IMG/VR virus record: IMGVR_UViG_3300045003_000247
Coordinates: 1 to 21,872 of that record
Source of the DNA: a virus
Length of the DNA: 21,872 bases
Direction: 5' to 3' (one strand)
The notes below the pieces were generated by a model. It was not told the origin of the DNA. It searched no databases and saw nothing but the letters and a program-made list of their open reading frames with translations. Made by a program: the position numbers and the translations under genes. Below, one piece after another: positions 3,848-17,970 of the stretch. Each line of letters starts with the position of its first letter. Within the stretch, counting starts at the first letter, position 1.

Positions 3848-4053
3848 GGCTGATCTCCCGTATCTGCGGGCACGTCATCCACTTCGAGCAACTCGAAGCG
3901 GCCGCGGTCTTGCACTTCGAGTTCCTCATAATCGAACTCGCCGCCTCCGCGCTCGACCACCGCACGCGCTTCATCTTCCGTCTCGGCGTCGACGTGGTAC
4001 ACCTGATGCCCACTCACCGACTGCACTTGGGCGATAAACGTGTAGCGTTTCAT
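3841..4053 (-). CDS. Small hypothetical protein, 70 aa
   Basis: The start ATG at 4053 overlaps the upstream stop by one base (TGATG), with GGGAGG 4 bases before it. The opening MKRYTFIAQVQSVSGHQVYH and the helix AETEDEARAVVE form a small beta-beta-alpha unit. The same plan occurs in the 49-residue protein at 14835-14984 (VQATNEDDARMAAL). The C-terminus is acidic (ELLEVDDVPADTGDQ). This resembles short phage proteins of unknown function. Confidence 0.65.
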   Translation of the reverse strand: MKRYTFIAQVQSVSGHQVYHVDAETEDEARAVVERGGGEFDYEELEVQDRGRFELLEVDDVPADTGDQPC

Positions 4054-4592
4054 CACGCCTCCCGTTCGGAATGGGATTGCAGGGCGGCGTCGAACACCGA
4101 AAACTCGCCGTGAAGTTTGAGCGAGGCATTCCGGTATGCGGCGTGCGCCTCTTCGGCCGTATCGAAATATCCCAACTCGATCTCCTTCCCGCCGTTGCGG
4201 ATACGCGCTCGCCAGCGCCCAACTGACTTGTGGAATGACGCTCCTCGTAGGCCGCCGTTGCACTCCGCACCGCGCCGATGTGCATTGTTCTGGCTAAGAT
4301 TGGCTTTCCGAAGATTGCAGATTCGGTTGTCGCTGCGAATACCGTTGATATGGTCCACATACGCCTCGGGCCAATCGCCGTACACATACAGCCACGCAAG
4401 CCGATGAGCGAAATACGAGCGCCCATCATGCTCAATCTTCACGTAGCCATCCGGCACTACCCGTCCAGCACGGCGTCCCGCACGCACACTCGGGCGAGCG
4501 CGCCATGTGAATGCTCCGGTTTCCGGGTCGTAGCTGAGGATCGCTCGAACCTGCTCGGCCGTCAGATCGTTGATCGTGATGATCGTCATCAT
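4053..4592 (-). CDS. HNH endonuclease with C-terminal AP2 DNA-binding domain, 179 aa
   Basis: An N-terminal region (YDPETGAFTWRARPS) is followed by the HNH_3-type core FAHRLAWLYVYG, VDHINGIRSDNRICNLR (H63, D80, H81, N83, N89, N93) and an AP2-like segment at about 118-162 (GASFHKSVGRWRARI, then GYFDTAEEAHAAYR). This is the usual layout of homing-type endonucleases in phages: the AP2 part reads DNA and the HNH part cuts it. All core HNH residues appear intact. The start is either ATG 4592 or ATG 4589; the second has better spacing to GGGAGG. Confidence 0.85.
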   Translation of the reverse strand: MMTIITINDLTAEQVRAILSYDPETGAFTWRARPSVRAGRRAGRVVPDGYVKIEHDGRSYFAHRLAWLYVYGDWPEAYVDHINGIRSDNRICNLRKANLSQNNAHRRGAECNGGLRGASFHKSVGRWRARIRNGGKEIELGYFDTAEEAHAAYRNASLKLHGEFSVFDAALQSHSEREA

Positions 4593-5436: not shown

Positions 5437-6434
5437 TCATTCGCAGAGGCCGTATGCCGATGAGCACGCCTTCGCGTCATACGTGGGTTCGAGCAGGTCG
5501 TATTGGCGGCCGCCGCGCGTCGTTTTCGACCATTCGACGACTGCCCAGATGGTCGACGCCTCGCCTGAATGGCCCTGTGTTCCCATGTGGAAGAACGAGA
5601 CCGGTGAGCGCGGGCGCGCCACACTCGACACCAACCGCTCCCATTCGGCTAGTCGTTCAACCTCTTCAGGGAAGCGCCGAGCGATTTCAGCCAACTCGGC
5701 TTTGGCGGCATTGATGCAGGGCATGCAGCCGACACGTTTCATGCCTTGGCGATATAAAGGATTGGGCTCGATGCCGGCCGTCGCGTGTGCCTCGAAGACA
5801 TCCTCGACTCGCCAGCGGAGAATCGGGCGAAAATTGAACAGGCCGCCGCCAACGACATCGAAGGCCTTCACACAAGCGCCGGTTCCTTGGAGTCGAGTGC
5901 GTCGGGAATCGCTCTCGTCGATGCGCACGCCCTGCCACGACCAGACCGCATACCGGAATCGATCAAATCGAGAGCGTATTCGGTCAGCGGCTCTGTCTTC
6001 AGATACTGGGTGCAGAACTGCCGCTTACGCGACGGGAAACCACCTTTGAGCATGCACATGTCGAGGTACGGGTTCCCTGTCGGATGGAGCAATTCAAGCG
6101 CGCGGGCGGCGGCATCGGGAGACCACGGGTATTGAAATTTGCGTTTCCCGTAGACGGCAGCCTCTGACTCGCCGGCAGCGAGTCGCGTCAGATTCGCGCG
6201 CTTCGTCGCGAATTCATCAGTGAAATCCGCCTTCACAACGTCTACCGTGATGTCAAGCTTCGACGGCAAGTATTCGAGTACATATTCATACGTCTGTGCA
6301 TGCTCGTTGCCGGTGTCGGCGAACACGAATCGGCAGTTCTCACGACCGTGCATTTCCAGTGCCATGATGGCCGTCGCAGTGCTGTCCTTCCCACCGGACA
6401 TAGAGACGACGTGCATCGTCGGGCGTTCGATCAT
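5437..6434 (-). pseudogene. PAPS reductase/DndC-family phage protein, frameshifted
   Basis: Two overlapping frames make one protein of about 332 residues. The upstream frame (6434-5868) begins MHVVSMSGGKDSTATAIMA, the SGGKDS PP-loop of the adenine-nucleotide alpha-hydrolase/PAPS reductase family, and continues VFADTGNEHAQTYEYV and FPSRKRQFCTQYLK. The downstream frame (to 5437) holds the C-terminal part: VRIDESDSRR, the zinc-like GCMPC, and a helical tail. The frame is lost at the GGT codon 5954-5952. One missing base there would restore SG-x-AVWSWQGVRIDE. If real, the protein stops after about 188 residues with a wrong tail. Members of this family in phages are of uncertain role. Confidence 0.8.
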
Positions 6435-7814: not shown

Positions 7815-9404
7815 TCAGGCTGCTTCCTTCTGCAGCGCAGCTTGTATGTGATTCACCAGGGCCGCGCAAATCCGCTCGAAGTCGCTCTCGTGGTAGAGCC
7901 TCGCGGCCTTGTCCGTTGCTGCGTGCTTAAACCCGAGCGTTGCGAGGCCTTCCGCCGTCAGCGAGATCGGCGCGAGGCGTTCGTTGATCTGGCCGAGTCG
8001 AAGCGTCGGCGCGCCGGTCGGCGTAGCGCCAGCCCAAGGCGCGGCGATCTGGACCGGTTTGGCGGTGATCGGTGCCGGCGTGACGACTGCTGGCGCGGGG
8101 GGCGCTGTCTTCTCCGCTTCCGCCTTCACGTGCTCGTCGATCCGCGCCTTCACGGCCAGCGCGAAGTCTTCTTGCGGCTTCTGGATAAGCGTCTGCAGGT
8201 CGCGGAACAGGAAGCCGTGTGCCTCTCGGTGGTGAGCCCTGTACCACTCCAGTTTCGTGCGCAGATCCTTCGCGGCTGCATCGGCGGCAATTTTGCCGTT
8301 TGCGAGCGCCGTATCGAGCTTGTCGTGCAGGCTGGCGATCGTCTTGAGTCCCTTGATTGCGTCCGCGAAATCCGGCGCAGGCACGACGATGCTCACGTCG
8401 CCCAGCTCCTCATTCAGCGCTGCAACGTAATCGGCGTACTTGCGACGGCGTTCCTCGATGGCGGCTTCCTTGATCTGCTTCTTGCGGCTCTCCACCAGCT
8501 TGTCGAGTGCGAGTCGCTTGCCCCTCAACTGCGCCTTGATGTGATCGACTGTCCGCATCAGTTCGTCGATGCTCGCGGTCTGCGCAATCGCGGCGTTCTT
8601 CGCGATTTCCAGGCTGTCCTCCGCCTCCTTGCAGAATTTCACCGTTGCATCGGCCTGAGCGAAGTCCTCGTCCGTTTTCAGATCGGTCTTGATGCTGGCG
8701 ATGAACTGCTCGGCAGCCGACTTGAACGCCGGCAGGTTGCTGGTGATGACTTCACCGCGGATTTGCACGGCGAGCGCCGGCAGTGCCATGATTGCGTCGG
8801 CCTTCGGCTTTTCGGTGATCTCCCGCGGCTGGTATTCGGCAAGGTCGCGCTCGAATTGTGCCCAGCCGGCGCGCAGCCGCTCGAACCAGCCTTCATCCGG
8901 CTCGACCTCGATGCGCTCCATGTTCTCCGCCGTGCCATCCGACACGACGAAGATAACCTTCTTGGCGCCCGTCACCAGCATGATCTGTTGACACTGCGGC
9001 CAGTATTCGTCGGGCAAGGCACCGCCGCGCACCGATTCGGCCAGTCCGGCATTCCATTGCTTATGCTCGAACGCGATGTCTTCGGACATCGTCAACCCGT
9101 CGCACGATGCAGACAGGCGCCCGAGCGAGCACGTCACCGGATAGAGATCGTCGCCGATGATTTCCTCTACAATCGGGCGCGCGAGCGCTTCGACCTCGTG
9201 CCCATAGTCCAGGATGTTCTCCTGTACCCAGTCGGAGAACTCCTGCGGCGTGCCGGTGTGCTTCATGTGAAGCAACTCGTTACGCTTCACCTTGGTCGAA
9301 AGGCCTAGCATCGCTGCCGCCTCGCTCGCGCCGAAGTGTTCGAGGCGAAATTGCATCCATTCAGGGCTACCCTGAACCAAGTTGTGGATGATGCGTTCAG
9401 TCAT
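7815..9404 (-). CDS. YqaJ-type (lambda Exo-like) exonuclease with long C-terminal region, 529 aa
   Basis: Residues 1-200 form a YqaJ viral recombinase domain of the PD-(D/E)XK fold. Visible parts are VQGSPEWMQFRLEHFGASEAA, GHEVEALARP (E70), D102 and the E-x-K pair E113/K115. Enzymes of this family resect double-stranded ends 5' to 3' to give single strands for annealing. The part after about residue 210 is helical with a coiled-coil region (RGKRLALDKLVESRKKQ) and resembles phage DUF1351-like extensions. A Pro/Ala-rich linker leads to a short C-terminal domain. It is paired with the annealing-protein candidate next door, overlapping it by 8 bases. Confidence 0.85.
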   Translation of the reverse strand: MTERIIHNLVQGSPEWMQFRLEHFGASEAAAMLGLSTKVKRNELLHMKHTGTPQEFSDWVQENILDYGHEVEALARPIVEEIIGDDLYPVTCSLGRLSASCDGLTMSEDIAFEHKQWNAGLAESVRGGALPDEYWPQCQQIMLVTGAKKVIFVVSDGTAENMERIEVEPDEGWFERLRAGWAQFERDLAEYQPREITEKPKADAIMALPALAVQIRGEVITSNLPAFKSAAEQFIASIKTDLKTDEDFAQADATVKFCKEAEDSLEIAKNAAIAQTASIDELMRTVDHIKAQLRGKRLALDKLVESRKKQIKEAAIEERRRKYADYVAALNEELGDVSIVVPAPDFADAIKGLKTIASLHDKLDTALANGKIAADAAAKDLRTKLEWYRAHHREAHGFLFRDLQTLIQKPQEDFALAVKARIDEHVKAEAEKTAPPAPAVVTPAPITAKPVQIAAPWAGATPTGAPTLRLGQINERLAPISLTAEGLATLGFKHAATDKAARLYHESDFERICAALVNHIQAALQKEAA

Positions 9405-10446
9405 TCTCGTGGCTCCACGCGTCGATGGTTAGCTTCTGGTCTTCGGTGAGCTTTGTCTTCGTTTCGATCATCGCGATGAGCTCGGCGACCGTTTTCGTCT
9501 TTTCGACGATCTGCTTGCGCCAACCTGCCTGCTTCTTTTCGAACTCTTCCGCAGAGCAAACCGGTGCCACCTTAGGCGCAGGATCATTGGACCCGCCCTC
9601 GCCGCTCTGCTCGGCCTTGTTCTCCATGACCGTCTTCCAGGTGGCTTCGCCGTCCTTAATCGCGCCGTAGATGCCGCGCAAGTCAACCAACTCAGTCGGC
9701 GAACAGGCGTCGAGCGAATGACCGAGATAGGCGACCAAATCCGCCGCCTTCACGCCGATGTCCGCGAACGCGTCGGCGATCTTCTTGCGCTCCGCTGCCG
9801 GATCGCGCGCCGCTTCGTTCATGCGGACGGACTTGATGATGTCTTCGGCTTCGTCCTGCAGATCACCGGGGATGATGCGCAGGCCCAGCGTCCGGATAGC
9901 CTTTGAAATCTGCGCTGCCCGCTTGTTCAGCAGGTCGTCATCGTTCGCCGGCACGGTGTAGACCATCTTCCCGTAGCTGTTCTTGCGGACCGAAATGTAC
10001 GAACCATCGTCGGCCGGCTTCGAGCGTTCGACCGTCTTCGACACGCGCACATCCAACGGATAGGTCAGGTTCGACTCGAGATCCGTCACGCTGACGCGGT
10101 GGACCTCCTTCGAATCGTCTTCGAAGATCATCGTCGTCTCGACCAGCACGTTTTTCATGCAGCGCAGCGCGACTTCGACGAAGCGAATCCCAAGGCCTTC
10201 CACGCCTTGGCCGATCGGCTTGCGGTAGTAGGCGCTCTTGTTGTGCGCGAACGACGGGCGCTTGCATTCGGCGATCAGGTCTTGGCGCACCTGATCCCAG
10301 TTCCGCGGGCGCTGCATCGCCATGATGTAGCGAGCCTCGACCATCGCTTTTGACTGGGCGGCGATGCCGGCCGATGCCGTCTCCACGACGGCGGTGGTTT
10401 GCTGCTGGGCGCCGAATTCCTGGCGTACGGAAAGTGCCGTGTTCAT
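9397..10446 (-). CDS. Putative single-strand annealing recombinase, 349 aa
   Basis: The core reads MQRPRNWDQVRQDLIAECKR, SAYYRKPIGQGVEGLGIRF, VTDLESNLTYPLDVRVSKTV, NDDDLLNKRAAQISKAIRT and LRIIPGDLQDEAEDIIKSVR. This is a conserved phage family that I do not place in RecT, Erf or Redbeta by motif. Its position directly before a YqaJ exonuclease is where a single-strand annealing partner is normally encoded, so that role is inferred from context. The C-terminus is helical and variable. The ATG at 10446 overlaps the upstream stop (ATGA). Confidence 0.7.
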   Translation of the reverse strand: MNTALSVRQEFGAQQQTTAVVETASAGIAAQSKAMVEARYIMAMQRPRNWDQVRQDLIAECKRPSFAHNKSAYYRKPIGQGVEGLGIRFVEVALRCMKNVLVETTMIFEDDSKEVHRVSVTDLESNLTYPLDVRVSKTVERSKPADDGSYISVRKNSYGKMVYTVPANDDDLLNKRAAQISKAIRTLGLRIIPGDLQDEAEDIIKSVRMNEAARDPAAERKKIADAFADIGVKAADLVAYLGHSLDACSPTELVDLRGIYGAIKDGEATWKTVMENKAEQSGEGGSNDPAPKVAPVCSAEEFEKKQAGWRKQIVEKTKTVAELIAMIETKTKLTEDQKLTIDAWSHEND

Positions 10447-11802: not shown

Positions 11803-11931
11803 TCAGTCCAGCAGCGTCAGCAGCCTCTGCATAAACCGCAGATACGCCGCCTCTGCTGCTGCCTGCTTCGCCGGCATCTGTTCTTCCAGCCATTCGCGGG
11901 TGATGTCGATCCAGTCGTCGGGTGGGATCAT
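11803..11931 (-). CDS. Small helical protein, 42 aa
   Basis: The ATG at 11931 overlaps the stop of the acyl carrier protein gene (ATGA). The protein opens MIPPDDWIDITREWLEEQMP and continues as an Ala-rich helix (AKQAAAEAAYLRFMQRLLTL). It is short, fully coupled and possibly an interaction partner of the carrier protein; that last point is only positional inference. Confidence 0.55.
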   Translation of the reverse strand: MIPPDDWIDITREWLEEQMPAKQAAAEAAYLRFMQRLLTLLD

Positions 11932-12182
11932 GGCTGTACCTTTGAACGTACGATGTCGATCGCATCCTGAACCGTGCGCACTGCCTCGCCTTCGCAGTCA
12001 GATATTTCGACGTCGAATTCGGATTCGATTGCCATGGCGGTCTCCAGCAATTCGATGGAGTCAAGGCCAAGGTCGTTGACGAGCAAATATGAAGGCTGGA
12101 TATCGGCAAGCGAGACGCCCGTGATTTCATGGATGCACTGCTTTACGCGGTCCTCAACGCTTCCGGTGTAGATCGTGCTCAT
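11928..12182 (-). CDS. Phage-encoded acyl carrier protein, 84 aa
   Basis: The sequence DRVKQCIHEITGVSLADIQP, then NDLGLDSIELLETAMAIESE and FDVEISDCEGEAVRTVQDAI, matches bacterial acyl carrier proteins throughout: four-helix length, acidic recognition helix II, and the Asp-Ser-Ile motif with Ser42 as the phosphopantetheine site. ACP carries acyl chains in fatty-acid synthesis and is also a partner for several unrelated enzymes. The start at 12182 (MSTIYTGSVED) overlaps the upstream stop (ATGA). The surrounding genes are phage genes and no fatty-acid enzyme is nearby, so its acyl substrate is unknown. Confidence 0.85.
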   Translation of the reverse strand: MSTIYTGSVEDRVKQCIHEITGVSLADIQPSYLLVNDLGLDSIELLETAMAIESEFDVEISDCEGEAVRTVQDAIDIVRSKVQP

Positions 12183-12490
12183 GCCCTCTCCCACTCTGCG
12201 TCCGCGAAGTACTGGCTCATCAGATATGCGACGCCAGCTTCTTTGTGCTCGTGTTTCGGCTCGAAAGACGCCATGATGGCGCGGACGTGCTTCAGCGCCG
12301 CGTCCTTGTCCACGCCCTCATTGGGCGCGAGCCTCAGCGATTTGAGGCCGGAATAGAACCAGTCGCTCATCAGCTTGTTCCACTTCGTGCCGCCGTGACG
12401 CTTGAATTCGGCGGGAATCGCGGCGTAGTCGGGCAGCCCTTTGATCGAGCCGAATGCGACTTCGACGTCGCTAATTTGCGGGATGTTCAT
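12179..12490 (-). CDS. Conserved phage protein, 103 aa
   Basis: It opens MNIPQISDVEVAFGSIKGLP and ends FEPKHEHKEAGVAYLMSQYF. I recognise this as a widespread phage family of unknown function, in which the start (IP-x-x-x-DVE-x-AFG) and the C-terminal SFEPKHEHKEAGVAYL are the conserved parts. The middle (WNKLMSDWFYSGLKSLRLAP) is aromatic-rich. The ATG at 12490 overlaps the upstream stop (ATGA). Confidence 0.75.
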   Translation of the reverse strand: MNIPQISDVEVAFGSIKGLPDYAAIPAEFKRHGGTKWNKLMSDWFYSGLKSLRLAPNEGVDKDAALKHVRAIMASFEPKHEHKEAGVAYLMSQYFADAEWERA

Positions 12491-14985: not shown

Positions 14986-15010
14986 GTCTTTCTCCTGTAG
15001 CGGGAGCGGT
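14986..15010 (-). repeat. 25-base intergenic repeat with RBS hairpin, copy 2
   Basis: Identical to 14807-14831. It places the same potential RBS-masking hairpin before the gene starting at 14984. Confidence 0.7.
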
Positions 15011-15012
15011 GG

Positions 15013-15246
15013 TTAGGCTGAGACGCACGGAATCCAGGTGGAACAAACCAGCGTGCCGGATTCGACGCTGTCGCGGATAAGTCTCTTGCGCTCGAATTCA
15101 CTGATGGGGAATGCCACCATGCAGCACAGACGACCGTGCCAGCCGCGATTATCGCCATCCCATTGATGCATCGCGTAGCCGCCCGACTTGAACAGTTCCA
15201 GGCGGAATCCATTGGCACCGAACATTTTGATAACGTCCATCGTCAT
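15013..15246 (-). CDS. Small hypothetical protein, 77 aa
   Basis: The ATG at 15246 overlaps the upstream stop (ATGA); a second Met is at 15240. The protein opens MTMDVIKMFGANGFRLELFK and continues GGYAMHQWDGDNRGWHGRLC and SVESGTLVCSTWIPC. Four Cys and many aromatic residues suggest a compact fold. No domain is recognised. Confidence 0.65.
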   Translation of the reverse strand: MTMDVIKMFGANGFRLELFKSGGYAMHQWDGDNRGWHGRLCCMVAFPISEFERKRLIRDSVESGTLVCSTWIPCVSA

Positions 15247-15407
15247 TCCCCTTCGTCATTAGTACTGCTACTCACCCCAACAACTCCACCGCCCTCTCCC
15301 TTGCCGAACACCGCGTCATACGCTTGATCGATCGTCATGCCTTTTGCAACATGGGCGAGGATTGCGGCGCTGATCTGTGCGTTCTTCATGCCCTGTTGCG
15401 TGTTCAT
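15243..15407 (-). CDS. First gene of the leftward operon, small protein, 54 aa
   Basis: ATG at 15407 has GGAG 6 bases upstream. A longer frame from 15470 is ruled out because that ATG lies in the PL -10 region. The protein opens MNTQQGMKNAQISAAILAHV, then AKGMTIDQAYDAVFGKGE, a short helical unit, and ends with a Gly/Ser-rich tail. As the first gene from PL it holds the position of lambda N, but it has no arginine-rich RNA-binding motif, so an antiterminator role is not supported. Confidence 0.6.
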   Translation of the reverse strand: MNTQQGMKNAQISAAILAHVAKGMTIDQAYDAVFGKGEGGGVVGVSSSTNDEGE

Positions 15408-15460
15408 GACTATCTCCAGTTCGGTGTGGGTGGGTGTAGGTGTGTGCTGCGTTGAGATGA

Positions 15461-15489
15461 ACAATAGCAAATGCTCTCTCTTAATGCAA
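15461..15489 (-). promoter_or_regulatory. PL, leftward early promoter
   Basis: On the minus strand TTGCAT (15489-15484) and TATTGT (15466-15461) are 17 bases apart. The expected transcription start is near 15454, giving a leader of about 47 bases. The leader is rich in C and A and poor in G. The -10 region is part of a 17-base block identical to the one at PR. Confidence 0.7.
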
Positions 15490-15498
15490 GCAAAAGCT
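15466..15498. promoter_or_regulatory. Left operators
   Basis: AGCA-AA-TGCT (15466-15475) and the weaker AGCA-AA-AGCT (15489-15498) lie 23 bases apart centre to centre over PL. The half-site AGCA/TGCT is the same as in the four sites between the repressor and cro genes, so they are the likely left operators of the repressor and Cro. Confidence 0.65.
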
Positions 15499-15551
15499 AT
15501 CGCGCGAGCAAACTTTTTTGTTGCTGCCCGCGCCGGTCTGCGCGAAGACGC

Positions 15552-15570
15552 AAAAAGCCCGCTCGCGGGC
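15552..15570 (-). terminator. Rho-independent terminator, leftward
   Basis: On the minus strand a GC-rich hairpin (GCCCG/CGGGC with a CGAG loop) is followed by TTTTT. It lies just upstream of PL and would stop transcripts from the repressor/DUF3800 unit before they enter the leftward operon. Confidence 0.7.
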
Positions 15571-15608
15571 GGGCGTCGGTTATGCTGGCGAACTAGGAGG
15601 AGCTGACC

Positions 15609-15842
15609 ATGACCCGCGAAATGGCTCTCGCGCTGATGCGCTCAATGTCTAGGGACGACGATTTGGAGCCCGCGCAGGCGCTACTGGACCTGCTCGAGGT
15701 GCTCGCGCGAACGCACGAGACGATGGATAACGATGACTGGGAGAAGATTGCCATCGTGGGCGCGCTGCTGTGGCGAACCGAGATGGGCGACATCGAAGCT
15801 CAGGGCGAGTTCGAGATGCTTATGCGGCGGGTGCGGAAATAG
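15609..15842 (+). CDS. Small acidic helical protein in the immunity region, 77 aa
   Basis: A very strong site (AGGAGGAGC) lies before ATG 15609. The protein is almost all helix (MTREMALALMRSMSRDDDLE, LLDLLEVLARTHETMDNDDW, GEFEMLMRRVRK). It is a one-gene rightward unit with its own terminator at 15929-15963 and is convergent to DUF3800. A possible -10 (TATGCT, 15581-15586) lacks a clear -35. The isolated unit within the immunity region suggests a lysogeny-expressed accessory gene. Function unknown. Confidence 0.7.
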   Translation: MTREMALALMRSMSRDDDLEPAQALLDLLEVLARTHETMDNDDWEKIAIVGALLWRTEMGDIEAQGEFEMLMRRVRK

Positions 15843-15928
15843 GGCCATCATCCGCGCCAGATTGCCTTGCCATATTGCCGGGACACGAATAGAATTCTCT
15901 TAAGGGCTGGGGATTCTCGGCCGGCGAG

Positions 15929-15963
15929 GGCTTCCGGCGCTATGTCGGAGGCCTTTGCTTTTT
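15929..15963 (+). terminator. Rho-independent terminator, rightward
   Basis: GGCTTCCG (15929-15936), a 9-base loop and CGGAGGCC (15946-15953) form an 8-bp stem with one G-U pair. TTTGCTTTTT follows. It closes the 15609-15842 unit and ends right at the stop codon of the convergent DUF3800 gene. Confidence 0.8.
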
Positions 15964-16744
15964 ATGGCGGGAAAACTTTTAGACCCCACCCTTCCGCATA
16001 GCCCCTCACTTTGACGAACTTGGCCTTGAGCAGGTCAAACGCTCGATTGGGTTGATCCGGACGAATCACTGACATCCCTACTGGCCTGGCTACCAGGTCA
16101 GCAAGTTGCAGCCCGGATGAATTGGACTGCTTGTTGGCAAACACAATATCGAAGGCGAATTTTTCGTGATTGTAGTTTCCGCCGTCGCAGATGCGCCGAA
16201 ACTCCAGCTCTAGCTCATCGTCTTCGCTTCTTCCTCGTTGCTCCACGATAAGATGCACGCGGGGATGTGGCGTTTTGCCCCAATCGCCCTGCTGTCTGAG
16301 ATACGCGCAGACTCGTTCCAGCCCATACTGGAGCGCCAAGAAATAGGGATTCGCTGGATTGCGATAGCGCGCCTGCAATCGGTCCTTCCGAATGACTGTC
16401 GCCACGAGTGCAAATGGTGCATCTGCCATGATCGACGACAGTTCCCCCAAGAAACCCGCCTTCAGTTCCTTTGTCTTGAGGAACGAGAATGGGCCAAGAT
16501 CTCGCCTGATTTCTCGCTCGTGGAGGATTACCTGATCGTGCCCGAAGTGGCTGAACTTGAAGCCCTGAATCGCCGGCACGATCTGGCTGAGATATTGATC
16601 CTTCCTGACGATGAGGAAAGCGAGCACAAGCAGCGGGAAGTCTGGGTCGATACGGCCCATCGCCGGGCTGCCGCTTTCGTCGACGAAGACAAGATAGTCG
16701 CTGAATGTCTTTGCCGAAAGCGCCGGTTCGTGCGGTTGACTCAA
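15962..16744 (-). CDS. DUF3800 protein behind the repressor, 260 aa
   Basis: The start is TTG at 16744, two bases after the repressor stop. It gives MSQPHEPALSAKTFSDYLVF, then the DUF3800 hallmark VDESG (D22, E23). Further acidic positions follow: E76 in ILHERE, E168 in LIVEQRGR, and D216 in QLADLVARP. Proteins of this family are predicted to have an RNase H-like fold with metal-bound acidic residues, but their biochemical role is not established. All the key acidic positions seem present and the length is normal. It is cotranscribed with the repressor and so likely made in the lysogen. Confidence 0.85.
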   Translation of the reverse strand: MSQPHEPALSAKTFSDYLVFVDESGSPAMGRIDPDFPLLVLAFLIVRKDQYLSQIVPAIQGFKFSHFGHDQVILHEREIRRDLGPFSFLKTKELKAGFLGELSSIMADAPFALVATVIRKDRLQARYRNPANPYFLALQYGLERVCAYLRQQGDWGKTPHPRVHLIVEQRGRSEDDELELEFRRICDGGNYNHEKFAFDIVFANKQSNSSGLQLADLVARPVGMSVIRPDQPNRAFDLLKAKFVKVRGYAEGWGLKVFPP

Positions 16745-16746
16745 TG

Positions 16747-17541
16747 TCAGTTCCCACCAGCCATCGCCGAGCCTGAGCGGTAGATCACCTCCCCCACGAT
16801 CTTGACCAGTGCCATGCTCTCGGCTGGCACTTCCCGATCTGGGTACCGGCCGTTGTATGAGTGCAATACGATGCCGCCGCCCACCTGTTTGAATATCTGC
16901 TTTACCAGCGGCTCGTCCTCGAAGTAGATCGCGTACACCTTCCCGTCCCGCACGTGTACCCGGGTCGAGTCGATCATCATCATGTCGCGGTTGAACAAGA
17001 ACGGCTCCATGCTGTCGCCGCGAACCGTCAGCAGCTTGCAGTCCTTGGGCTTCGATCCGAGCGCCTTGAAGAAGCCGACGTCGAACGGCAGCGCTTTCTT
17101 TTCCCGCACTTCCCACTGAATCAAGCCTGTCCCCGCCGAGAAATGGTAGTCATAGCGGTCGATCCAGACTCGATTGTCGTCGGGCTCGAGATCTTCAGGC
17201 CGCTCCCATGCGACGACGTTACCCTTGTCGTCTGGAAGCAAACGCTTAATAAGCGCGTCGTCTTGGCTTGTGTCCGATGCACCAACATCGGGCGAAGTGT
17301 GCTTTCCGATCGCGAACCCTGAGTCGAAGTACATGGACGGCAGCCCAAGTTCTTCCTCGAGACGGCGCGCCGCCCTTTCACCGAAAGATTGCCCCTCCCG
17401 GTAGTTCGGATTCAGCACCTGCCGCAGCCGAGCCGCATCTTGATTGTGAATGCGCGAGAAGGCGGCAACGTTCCCCTTCGCTGCCTTGTCGGCCTCGATC
17501 AGGGCGCGCAAGCGCTGACGGCGGTACTCATGAATATCCAT
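16747..17541 (-). CDS. Phage repressor, LexA/CI-like S24 peptidase, 264 aa
   Basis: Residues 1-70 hold the DNA-binding part (IHEYRRQRLRALIEADK, a helical segment QDAARLRQVLNP). The C-terminal half is an S24 self-cleaving domain: cleavage site A136-G137 in HFSAGTG, catalytic Ser177 in VRGDSMEP and Lys214 in PLVKQIF. RecA-stimulated self-cleavage would induce the prophage on DNA damage. The start at 17541 (MDIHEYRRQR) has no ribosome-binding site but lies 6 bases after a -10-like TCTAAT. It is divergent from cro across the operator region. Confidence 0.9.
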   Translation of the reverse strand: MDIHEYRRQRLRALIEADKAAKGNVAAFSRIHNQDAARLRQVLNPNYREGQSFGERAARRLEEELGLPSMYFDSGFAIGKHTSPDVGASDTSQDDALIKRLLPDDKGNVVAWERPEDLEPDDNRVWIDRYDYHFSAGTGLIQWEVREKKALPFDVGFFKALGSKPKDCKLLTVRGDSMEPFLFNRDMMMIDSTRVHVRDGKVYAIYFEDEPLVKQIFKQVGGGIVLHSYNGRYPDREVPAESMALVKIVGEVIYRSGSAMAGGN

Positions 17542-17547
17542 GGCGCA

Positions 17548-17553
17548 ATTAGA
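17548..17553 (-). promoter_or_regulatory. Candidate PRM -10 for the repressor
   Basis: TCTAAT on the minus strand, 6 bases before the A of the repressor ATG. No good -35 is visible 17 bases upstream, as expected of a promoter that needs activation by repressor bound at a neighbouring operator. The transcription start would be at the ATG itself, giving a leaderless mRNA. Confidence 0.45.
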
Positions 17554-17563
17554 CCCGAAAACT

Positions 17564-17632
17564 AGCATTTGCTGTGTTCGCATTCGCTATTGTTTCGCAA
17601 GCACATGCTTGCTCTTTTCGAAAGCATTTGCT
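17564..17632. promoter_or_regulatory. Right operator cluster, four sites
   Basis: Sites: AGCATTTGCT (17564-17573), CGCATTCGCT (17579-17588), AAGCACATGCTT (17599-17610) and AGCATTTGCT (17623-17632). The last three are spaced exactly 22 bases centre to centre, about two helix turns. They cover the -35/-10 of PR and lie behind the repressor start. They match the left operators. The layout is like the three-site OR of lambda. Confidence 0.7.
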
Positions 17633-17637
17633 ATTGT
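17609..17637 (+). promoter_or_regulatory. PR, rightward early promoter
   Basis: TTGCTC (17609-17614) and TATTGT (17632-17637) are 17 bases apart. The predicted transcription start is near 17644, the A of the cro ATG. The -10 is part of the 17-base AGCATTTGCTATTGTTC block (17623-17639) shared with PL. Confidence 0.75.
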
Positions 17638-17643
17638 TCTCGC

Positions 17644-17970
17644 ATGGACATTTTTCATGCGTACTTCAAGGGCCTCCCGAAAGCTGAGCGCGAATCGTTC
17701 GCCGATCAGGTCGGCACGTCTGTCGCCTACCTCTGGCAAATCATCTACGGACAGCGCCGGTGTAGCGAGTCCATGGCAATCGAAATCGAGAAAGCTTCCG
17801 GGCGCGCGGTTCGGGTCGAGGATCTTCGGCCCGACGTCGACTGGGCGTACATACGCGAGTCGGCACGCTCGATAGCTGAAAGCCCCAACGGTATCACCGA
17901 ACGTGCTGCGGCAAGCGACGACACCCAACCTCCCGCAGGTGGATCGACGGATGACGGAGATGGTTCTTAG
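17644..17970 (+). CDS. Cro-like regulator, YdaS-type helix-turn-helix, 108 aa
   Basis: The start at 17644 (MDIFHAYFKGLPKAERESFA) is set by PR; upstream in-frame starts would lie inside the promoter. The helix-turn-helix is at about residues 18-45 (ADQVGTSVAYLWQIIYGQR). It is followed by SMAIEIEKASGRAVRVEDLR, the usual C-cap of YdaS/Cro proteins in which the recognition helix is followed by an LRPD motif. The tail is acidic and disordered. As the first gene from PR, diverging from the repressor, it would bind the shared operators and limit repressor synthesis. Confidence 0.85.
   Translation: MDIFHAYFKGLPKAERESFADQVGTSVAYLWQIIYGQRRCSESMAIEIEKASGRAVRVEDLRPDVDWAYIRESARSIAESPNGITERAAASDDTQPPAGGSTDDGDGS

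Follow-up and report, generated by a model that had tools for sequence, protein, structure and literature searches.

A stand-alone acyl carrier protein gene in the leftward operon of a probable Burkholderiales temperate phage

Phage-borne acyl carrier proteins and the gene described here

Acyl carrier proteins (ACPs) are small proteins that normally shuttle fatty-acid chains. Many phages have already been found to carry genes for them, with roles that are annotation-based. In the available portions of the published reports, roseophages carry ACPs, some together with fabG and fabF (PMC8224337), and ACPs are also carried by Erythrobacter phage R6L, whose authors called the function unclear (PMC5463345), by Vibrio phage R16F (PMC10152775) and by Alteromonas phage R22Y (PMC11705849); two co-isolated cyanophages carry an ACP with a synthetase (PMC3037559). 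The part assigned to phage ACPs as lipid 'auxiliary metabolic genes' was, in the same portions, proposed from annotation (PMC8224337, PMC11705849).

Here we describe the ACP gene of a 21,872-base IMG/VR virus record (the window, by which we mean the whole stretch of DNA analysed). The gene occupies 11928–12182 on the minus strand, with its ATG at 12182 and its stop at 11930–11928, and its 84 codons encode a protein of 84 amino acids. The protein matches PF00550 above the gathering cut-off (E 7.5e-9; 36.2 bits against 20.8) and, over its whole length, the 'acyl carrier protein' family phrog_5934 (E 8.3e-15; residues 4–82 on profile positions 10–88 of 93), which PHROG places in the category 'moron, auxiliary metabolic gene and host takeover'. 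The solved structures nearest to it are all ACPs, among them that of Vibrio harveyi (2l0q, E 8.6e-15). Its AlphaFold model (pLDDT 85.8) has helices at residues 9–21, 42–56, 62–67 and 71–81, and the best Foldseek matches of the model are E. coli AcpP chains at 0.7–1.4 Å and about 43% identity. The AcpP equivalog cut-offs are not reached (60.5 against 70.45 for TIGR00517 and 72.8 against 106 for NF002149), yet the best fold matches are AcpP. The D41-S42-I43 codons (GAC TCC ATC; 12054–12062, minus strand) form, by sequence and alignment, the phosphopantetheine attachment motif, and Ser42 stands at the start of helix II in the model. The first-pass annotation had placed an ACP with all its parts intact here, and the reading frame and the two profile matches, both far above chance, agree with it; the modifiable residue that it named, Ser42, is likewise the serine of the predicted DSI motif.

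Operon setting, relatives and single-gene gain or loss

The ACP gene is part of a series of leftward genes that runs to position 1. The series also includes a KTSC protein, the 349-residue phrog_3657 protein in the RecT position (9397–10446, minus strand), which served as a lineage marker for finding related phages, and a RecE-like/YqaJ exonuclease (7815–9404, minus strand; phrog_7655, E 1.2e-163; PF09588). The ACP gene lies between these RecE/RecT-position genes and a CI-like S24 repressor (16747–17583, minus strand; PF00717, E 5e-21; phrog_4), which marks the control region and is followed by a YdaS/Cro-like gene (17569–17970, plus strand; PHROG and Pfam scans). This gene order is that of a left operon of the lambda kind. 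As no consensus leftward promoter was recognised in a scan of 15000–16000, we infer early expression from the arrangement of the genes; of the earlier label 'early left operon', the left-operon order stands and 'early' is to be taken in this conditional sense. Relatives of the 349-residue protein come mostly from Burkholderiales genomes, Caballeronia, Cupriavidus and Paraburkholderia among them, which suggests a Burkholderiales host for what is probably a temperate phage of Burkholderiales type.

Both neighbours are tightly coupled to the ACP gene. An ATGA overlap at 12179–12182 joins the stop of the phrog_36680 frame to the ACP start, and a second at 11928–11931 joins the ACP stop, TGA, to the start of a 42-residue frame (both on the minus strand); the latter overlap confirms the tight downstream coupling noted at first pass. 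The sequence GGGAGAGG precedes the ACP start at the upstream overlap and is likely a ribosome-binding site. The upstream neighbour, the phrog_36680 protein of about 103 amino acids (12179–12490, minus strand), is 76% identical to its counterpart beside the ACP in the related locus L002. The downstream neighbour is a 42-residue helical protein (11803–11931, minus strand) with relatives in ACP-less phages and a Pfam match below threshold (RsmI_C, 21.1 bits, under the cut-off of 27). PADLOC gave no match for the ACP or for these two neighbours.

Some other features of the operon and its surroundings deserve mention in their own right. The phrog_36680 protein has a conserved 'FEPKHEHKEA' motif and relatives on 61 viral contigs and in Salmonella phage 9NA and Klebsiella and Stenotrophomonas phages. 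A DUF3800 protein (15962–16738, minus strand) is encoded directly downstream of the CI-like repressor, in the position of rexAB in lambda, and may be expressed in the lysogen. Within the leftward operon, a homing-endonuclease-like protein with HNH_3 and AP2 domains (4053–4592, minus strand) has relatives in L002 and L086, sited elsewhere than in the window. Two overlapping frames (5437–5928 and 5868–6434, both minus strand) match PF01507 positions 131–174 and 2–62, respectively; since these correspond to opposite ends of a single PAPS-reductase-like protein, this gene looks frameshifted or misread, and the C-terminal part of the protein has weak matches to BrxP and SspD models.

Pattern scans with the ACP sequence alone over genome and viral contigs returned no relatives, the patterns being too specific, and relatives were reached instead via neighbour genes and an ACP alignment and profile. 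Of the 46 distinct upstream regions of related phages that span 3.5 kb or more, 6 carry a divergent ACP. ACPs lie about 1–4 kb upstream of the phrog_3657 gene in L065, L069, L070, L078, L086, L091, L094/L095 and L103/L143, and the ACP of L002 adjoins a phrog_36680 gene. The L143 relative belongs to Caballeronia glathei DSM 50014. The window ACP is 49% identical to that of L002, 52–53% to its best viral contig (L153), less than 60% to every match among named phage records and 43–46% to Burkholderiales AcpP. In a tree of 76 columns, in which most deeper forks are not resolved, it pairs with L002 (support 99/91). A recent host copy of acpP is ruled out by the identity of at most 46% to Burkholderiales AcpP and by this grouping. 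A recently acquired host pseudogene, which the first-pass annotation had raised as a contrary case, is not what was found either: the frame is intact, the identity to host AcpP is equally low, the sequence groups with a phage ACP and dN/dS against L002 is about 0.2, with dS saturated.

Two near-identical phages provide a direct view of how the gene is gained or lost. L086 and L071 share long blocks of 94–98% identity on both sides of the site, and the ACP gene is present in the former and absent from the latter. The L086 junction reads GTGAGCA-ATGA-(ACP gene)-ATGA-AAACCGCA, and the L071 junction reads GTGAGCA-ATGA-AACCCGCA, so that the difference at the site is the ACP gene alone, between two ATGA junctions. 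Since the two phages differ here by exactly this gene, the ACP is an exchangeable single-gene cassette, able to come and go as a coupled gene. We regard the window gene as a genuine, constrained and exchangeable phage ACP, ordinary as a kind.

The 42-residue protein had been suggested at first pass as a possible partner of the ACP. Its gene persists at the precise ACP-less site of L071 and is found in further ACP-less relatives (L064, the L066 group, the L073 group and L093); L070 and L091 have an ACP gene with no such neighbour, and in L103 the order is reversed, with the 42-residue gene upstream of the ACP. Its ACP-less occurrence and the L071 site rule it out as an obligate partner, and the idea of a dedicated partner is not supported as first put, with some co-occurrence of the two genes remaining (Fisher p 0.005, uncorrected for shared ancestry). 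Judged by this distribution, the 42-residue gene appears to be an independent accessory gene.

Conservation and possible roles of the protein

The first-pass annotation had proposed a comparison with other phage ACPs for selection on Ser42. Ten distinct lineage ACPs, found without the serine motif in the search, have serine at the attachment position in nine cases in a DS[LI] alignment; the exception, L086, has aspartate. In a wider set serine is present in 108 of 111 rows, a figure that includes host copies and duplicates and in which one of two search patterns required the serine. Aspartate replaces it in L086/L207 (L086:6094–6339) and arginine in L194 of another phage group (L194:5001–5240), with the frame intact in each case. 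Helix II is the ACP surface recognised by AcpS and by fatty-acid enzymes. It is the best conserved part of the ten lineage ACPs, where mean column entropy is 1.00 bit, compared with 1.67 in helix I and 2.02 in loop 1, and D41, E47, E53, E55 and D62 are invariant among them. Rough NG86 estimates of dN/dS are 0.09–0.23 in serine-bearing phage ACP pairs with dS above 0.3, 0.19 for the window against L002 (dS saturated) and 0.72 for the serine-less L194 against L187. Taken at sequence level, the values for serine-bearing pairs indicate that purifying constraint acts across phage ACPs.

A scan of 47 window ORFs revealed no fatty-acid gene, as the first-pass annotation had reported, and no AcpS. In 50 other ACP-bearing viral records neither ACPS (PF01648) nor a ketoacyl synthase (PF00109) was found (0 of 50 for each, with positive bacterial controls), which suggests that the phage ACP most probably depends on the AcpS and the ACP-clients of its host. 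The flanks of other phage ACPs hold mostly SSB, RecT, exonuclease, methylase and regulator families. Among the 25 commonest flanking families there are no acyl enzymes and no recurring partner family, and Lar-like and Tad3 counter-defence families are found among the neighbours.

The window ACP is most likely an AcpP look-alike that is charged by host AcpS and enters the host ACP-client network. The fuller reading, to which we give about an even chance, is that the protein functions as a phage ACP of the kind used in type II fatty-acid synthesis (AcpP), that its gene is a self-contained accessory cassette of one gene, placed in the early leftward operon of a temperate phage of Burkholderiales, and that the holo form of the protein competes for host ACP-clients. 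Early after infection or induction, the ACP would be translated in coupling with its neighbours, and host AcpS would attach 4'-phosphopantetheine to Ser42. The resulting holo-ACP would vie with host AcpP for the enzymes and regulators that bind ACPs, tilting both the host's acyl-ACP pool and its lipid metabolism to the advantage of the phage. The clients that matter may belong to fatty-acid synthesis or be regulatory, SpoT being one candidate. Family and fold, the conservation of helix II, the low dN/dS of serine-bearing pairs, the 50 records without AcpS or ketosynthase genes, the difference between L086 and L071, the flanks of other phage ACPs and the retention of the ACP in this operon by several divergent phages count for this reading; the serine-less L086/L207 and L194 and the scores under the AcpP equivalog cut-offs count against it.

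A tentative and rather unlikely alternative is that the phage ACP, holo or apo, acts as a decoy or regulator: it would bind a host ACP-client outside fatty-acid synthesis, such as SpoT, and block or alter its signal in host takeover or counter-defence. A one-gene cassette that is set in an early operon and lacks metabolic partners is consistent with such a role, as are the open L086 frame with Asp for Ser and the counter-defence families near other phage ACPs. In E. coli, binding of ACP to SpoT is established and the ppGpp output of SpoT responds to ACP; the ACP substitutions L42M, V43E and M44I abolish SpoT binding and still support growth (PMC3340395). The window ACP, however, has T48 and A49 at the positions of L42 and V43, so its binding to SpoT may be weak, and the lack of a PADLOC match also stands against the decoy. 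The aspartate of L086/L207 and the arginine of L194 suggest that a carrier-independent role is possible in some phage ACPs. A broader form of the idea is that stand-alone phage ACPs in general bind host ACP-clients early on, as modules for host takeover or counter-defence and not as metabolic helpers, and that some lineages (L086 and L194) have even lost the phosphopantetheine arm; we consider this unlikely.

It is improbable that the ACP bears an acyl or thiol group on behalf of a phage enzyme, or is built into a phage complex as a structural subunit, perhaps together with the coupled 42-residue or 103-residue protein. The tight ATGA coupling to both neighbours, the conserved phrog_36680 neighbour in L002 and the co-occurrence with the 42-residue gene would fit such a cofactor. 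However, an ACP match was found in only one (L002) of the 61 loci reached via the phrog_36680 neighbour, the 42-residue gene occurs without the ACP in L071, and the absence of a recurring partner family weakens the proposal further. The first-pass annotation had named diversion of host lipid synthesis, competition for the host phosphopantetheinyl transferase and service as a cofactor to a phage enzyme as possible mechanisms; the sequence is compatible with each, less so with the last. Improbable too is a neutral passenger, a host acpP acquired by chance and drifting, which the accessory occurrence and the dN/dS of L194 favour. Against it stand a frame and a motif that are intact at an identity to host AcpP of just 46%, the constraint in serine-bearing pairs and the retention of the ACP by many divergent phages.

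Comparison with known systems

The window ACP shares with bacterial AcpP (TIGR00517/PRK00982) the fold, the DS[LI] motif and the acidic helix II surface. It differs in lying outside a fab cluster and in an N-terminal extension of about six residues, and it has T, A and M where E. coli AcpP has L42, V43 and M44. According to the available portions of the reports, cyanophages P-HM1 and P-HM2 encode their own ACPS beside the phage ACP (PMC3037559), in contrast to the ACP-bearing records here, and three Rhodobacteraceae prophages hold fabG, acpP and fabF together (PMC8224337), whereas the window ACP stands alone. Like the acpP genes of roseophages and of Erythrobacter phage vB_EliS-R6L, as presented in those portions, it is a phage-borne ACP of the kind annotated as an auxiliary metabolic gene (PMC8224337, PMC5463345). 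By profile it is a member of the PHROG 5934 phage ACPs, without a close relative among them, and its gene falls unremarkably into an already known category of phage genes. The near-identical phages with and without the gene, L086 and L071, offer a clean comparison, and together with the natural serine-less variants they make the question of carrier versus decoy directly testable.
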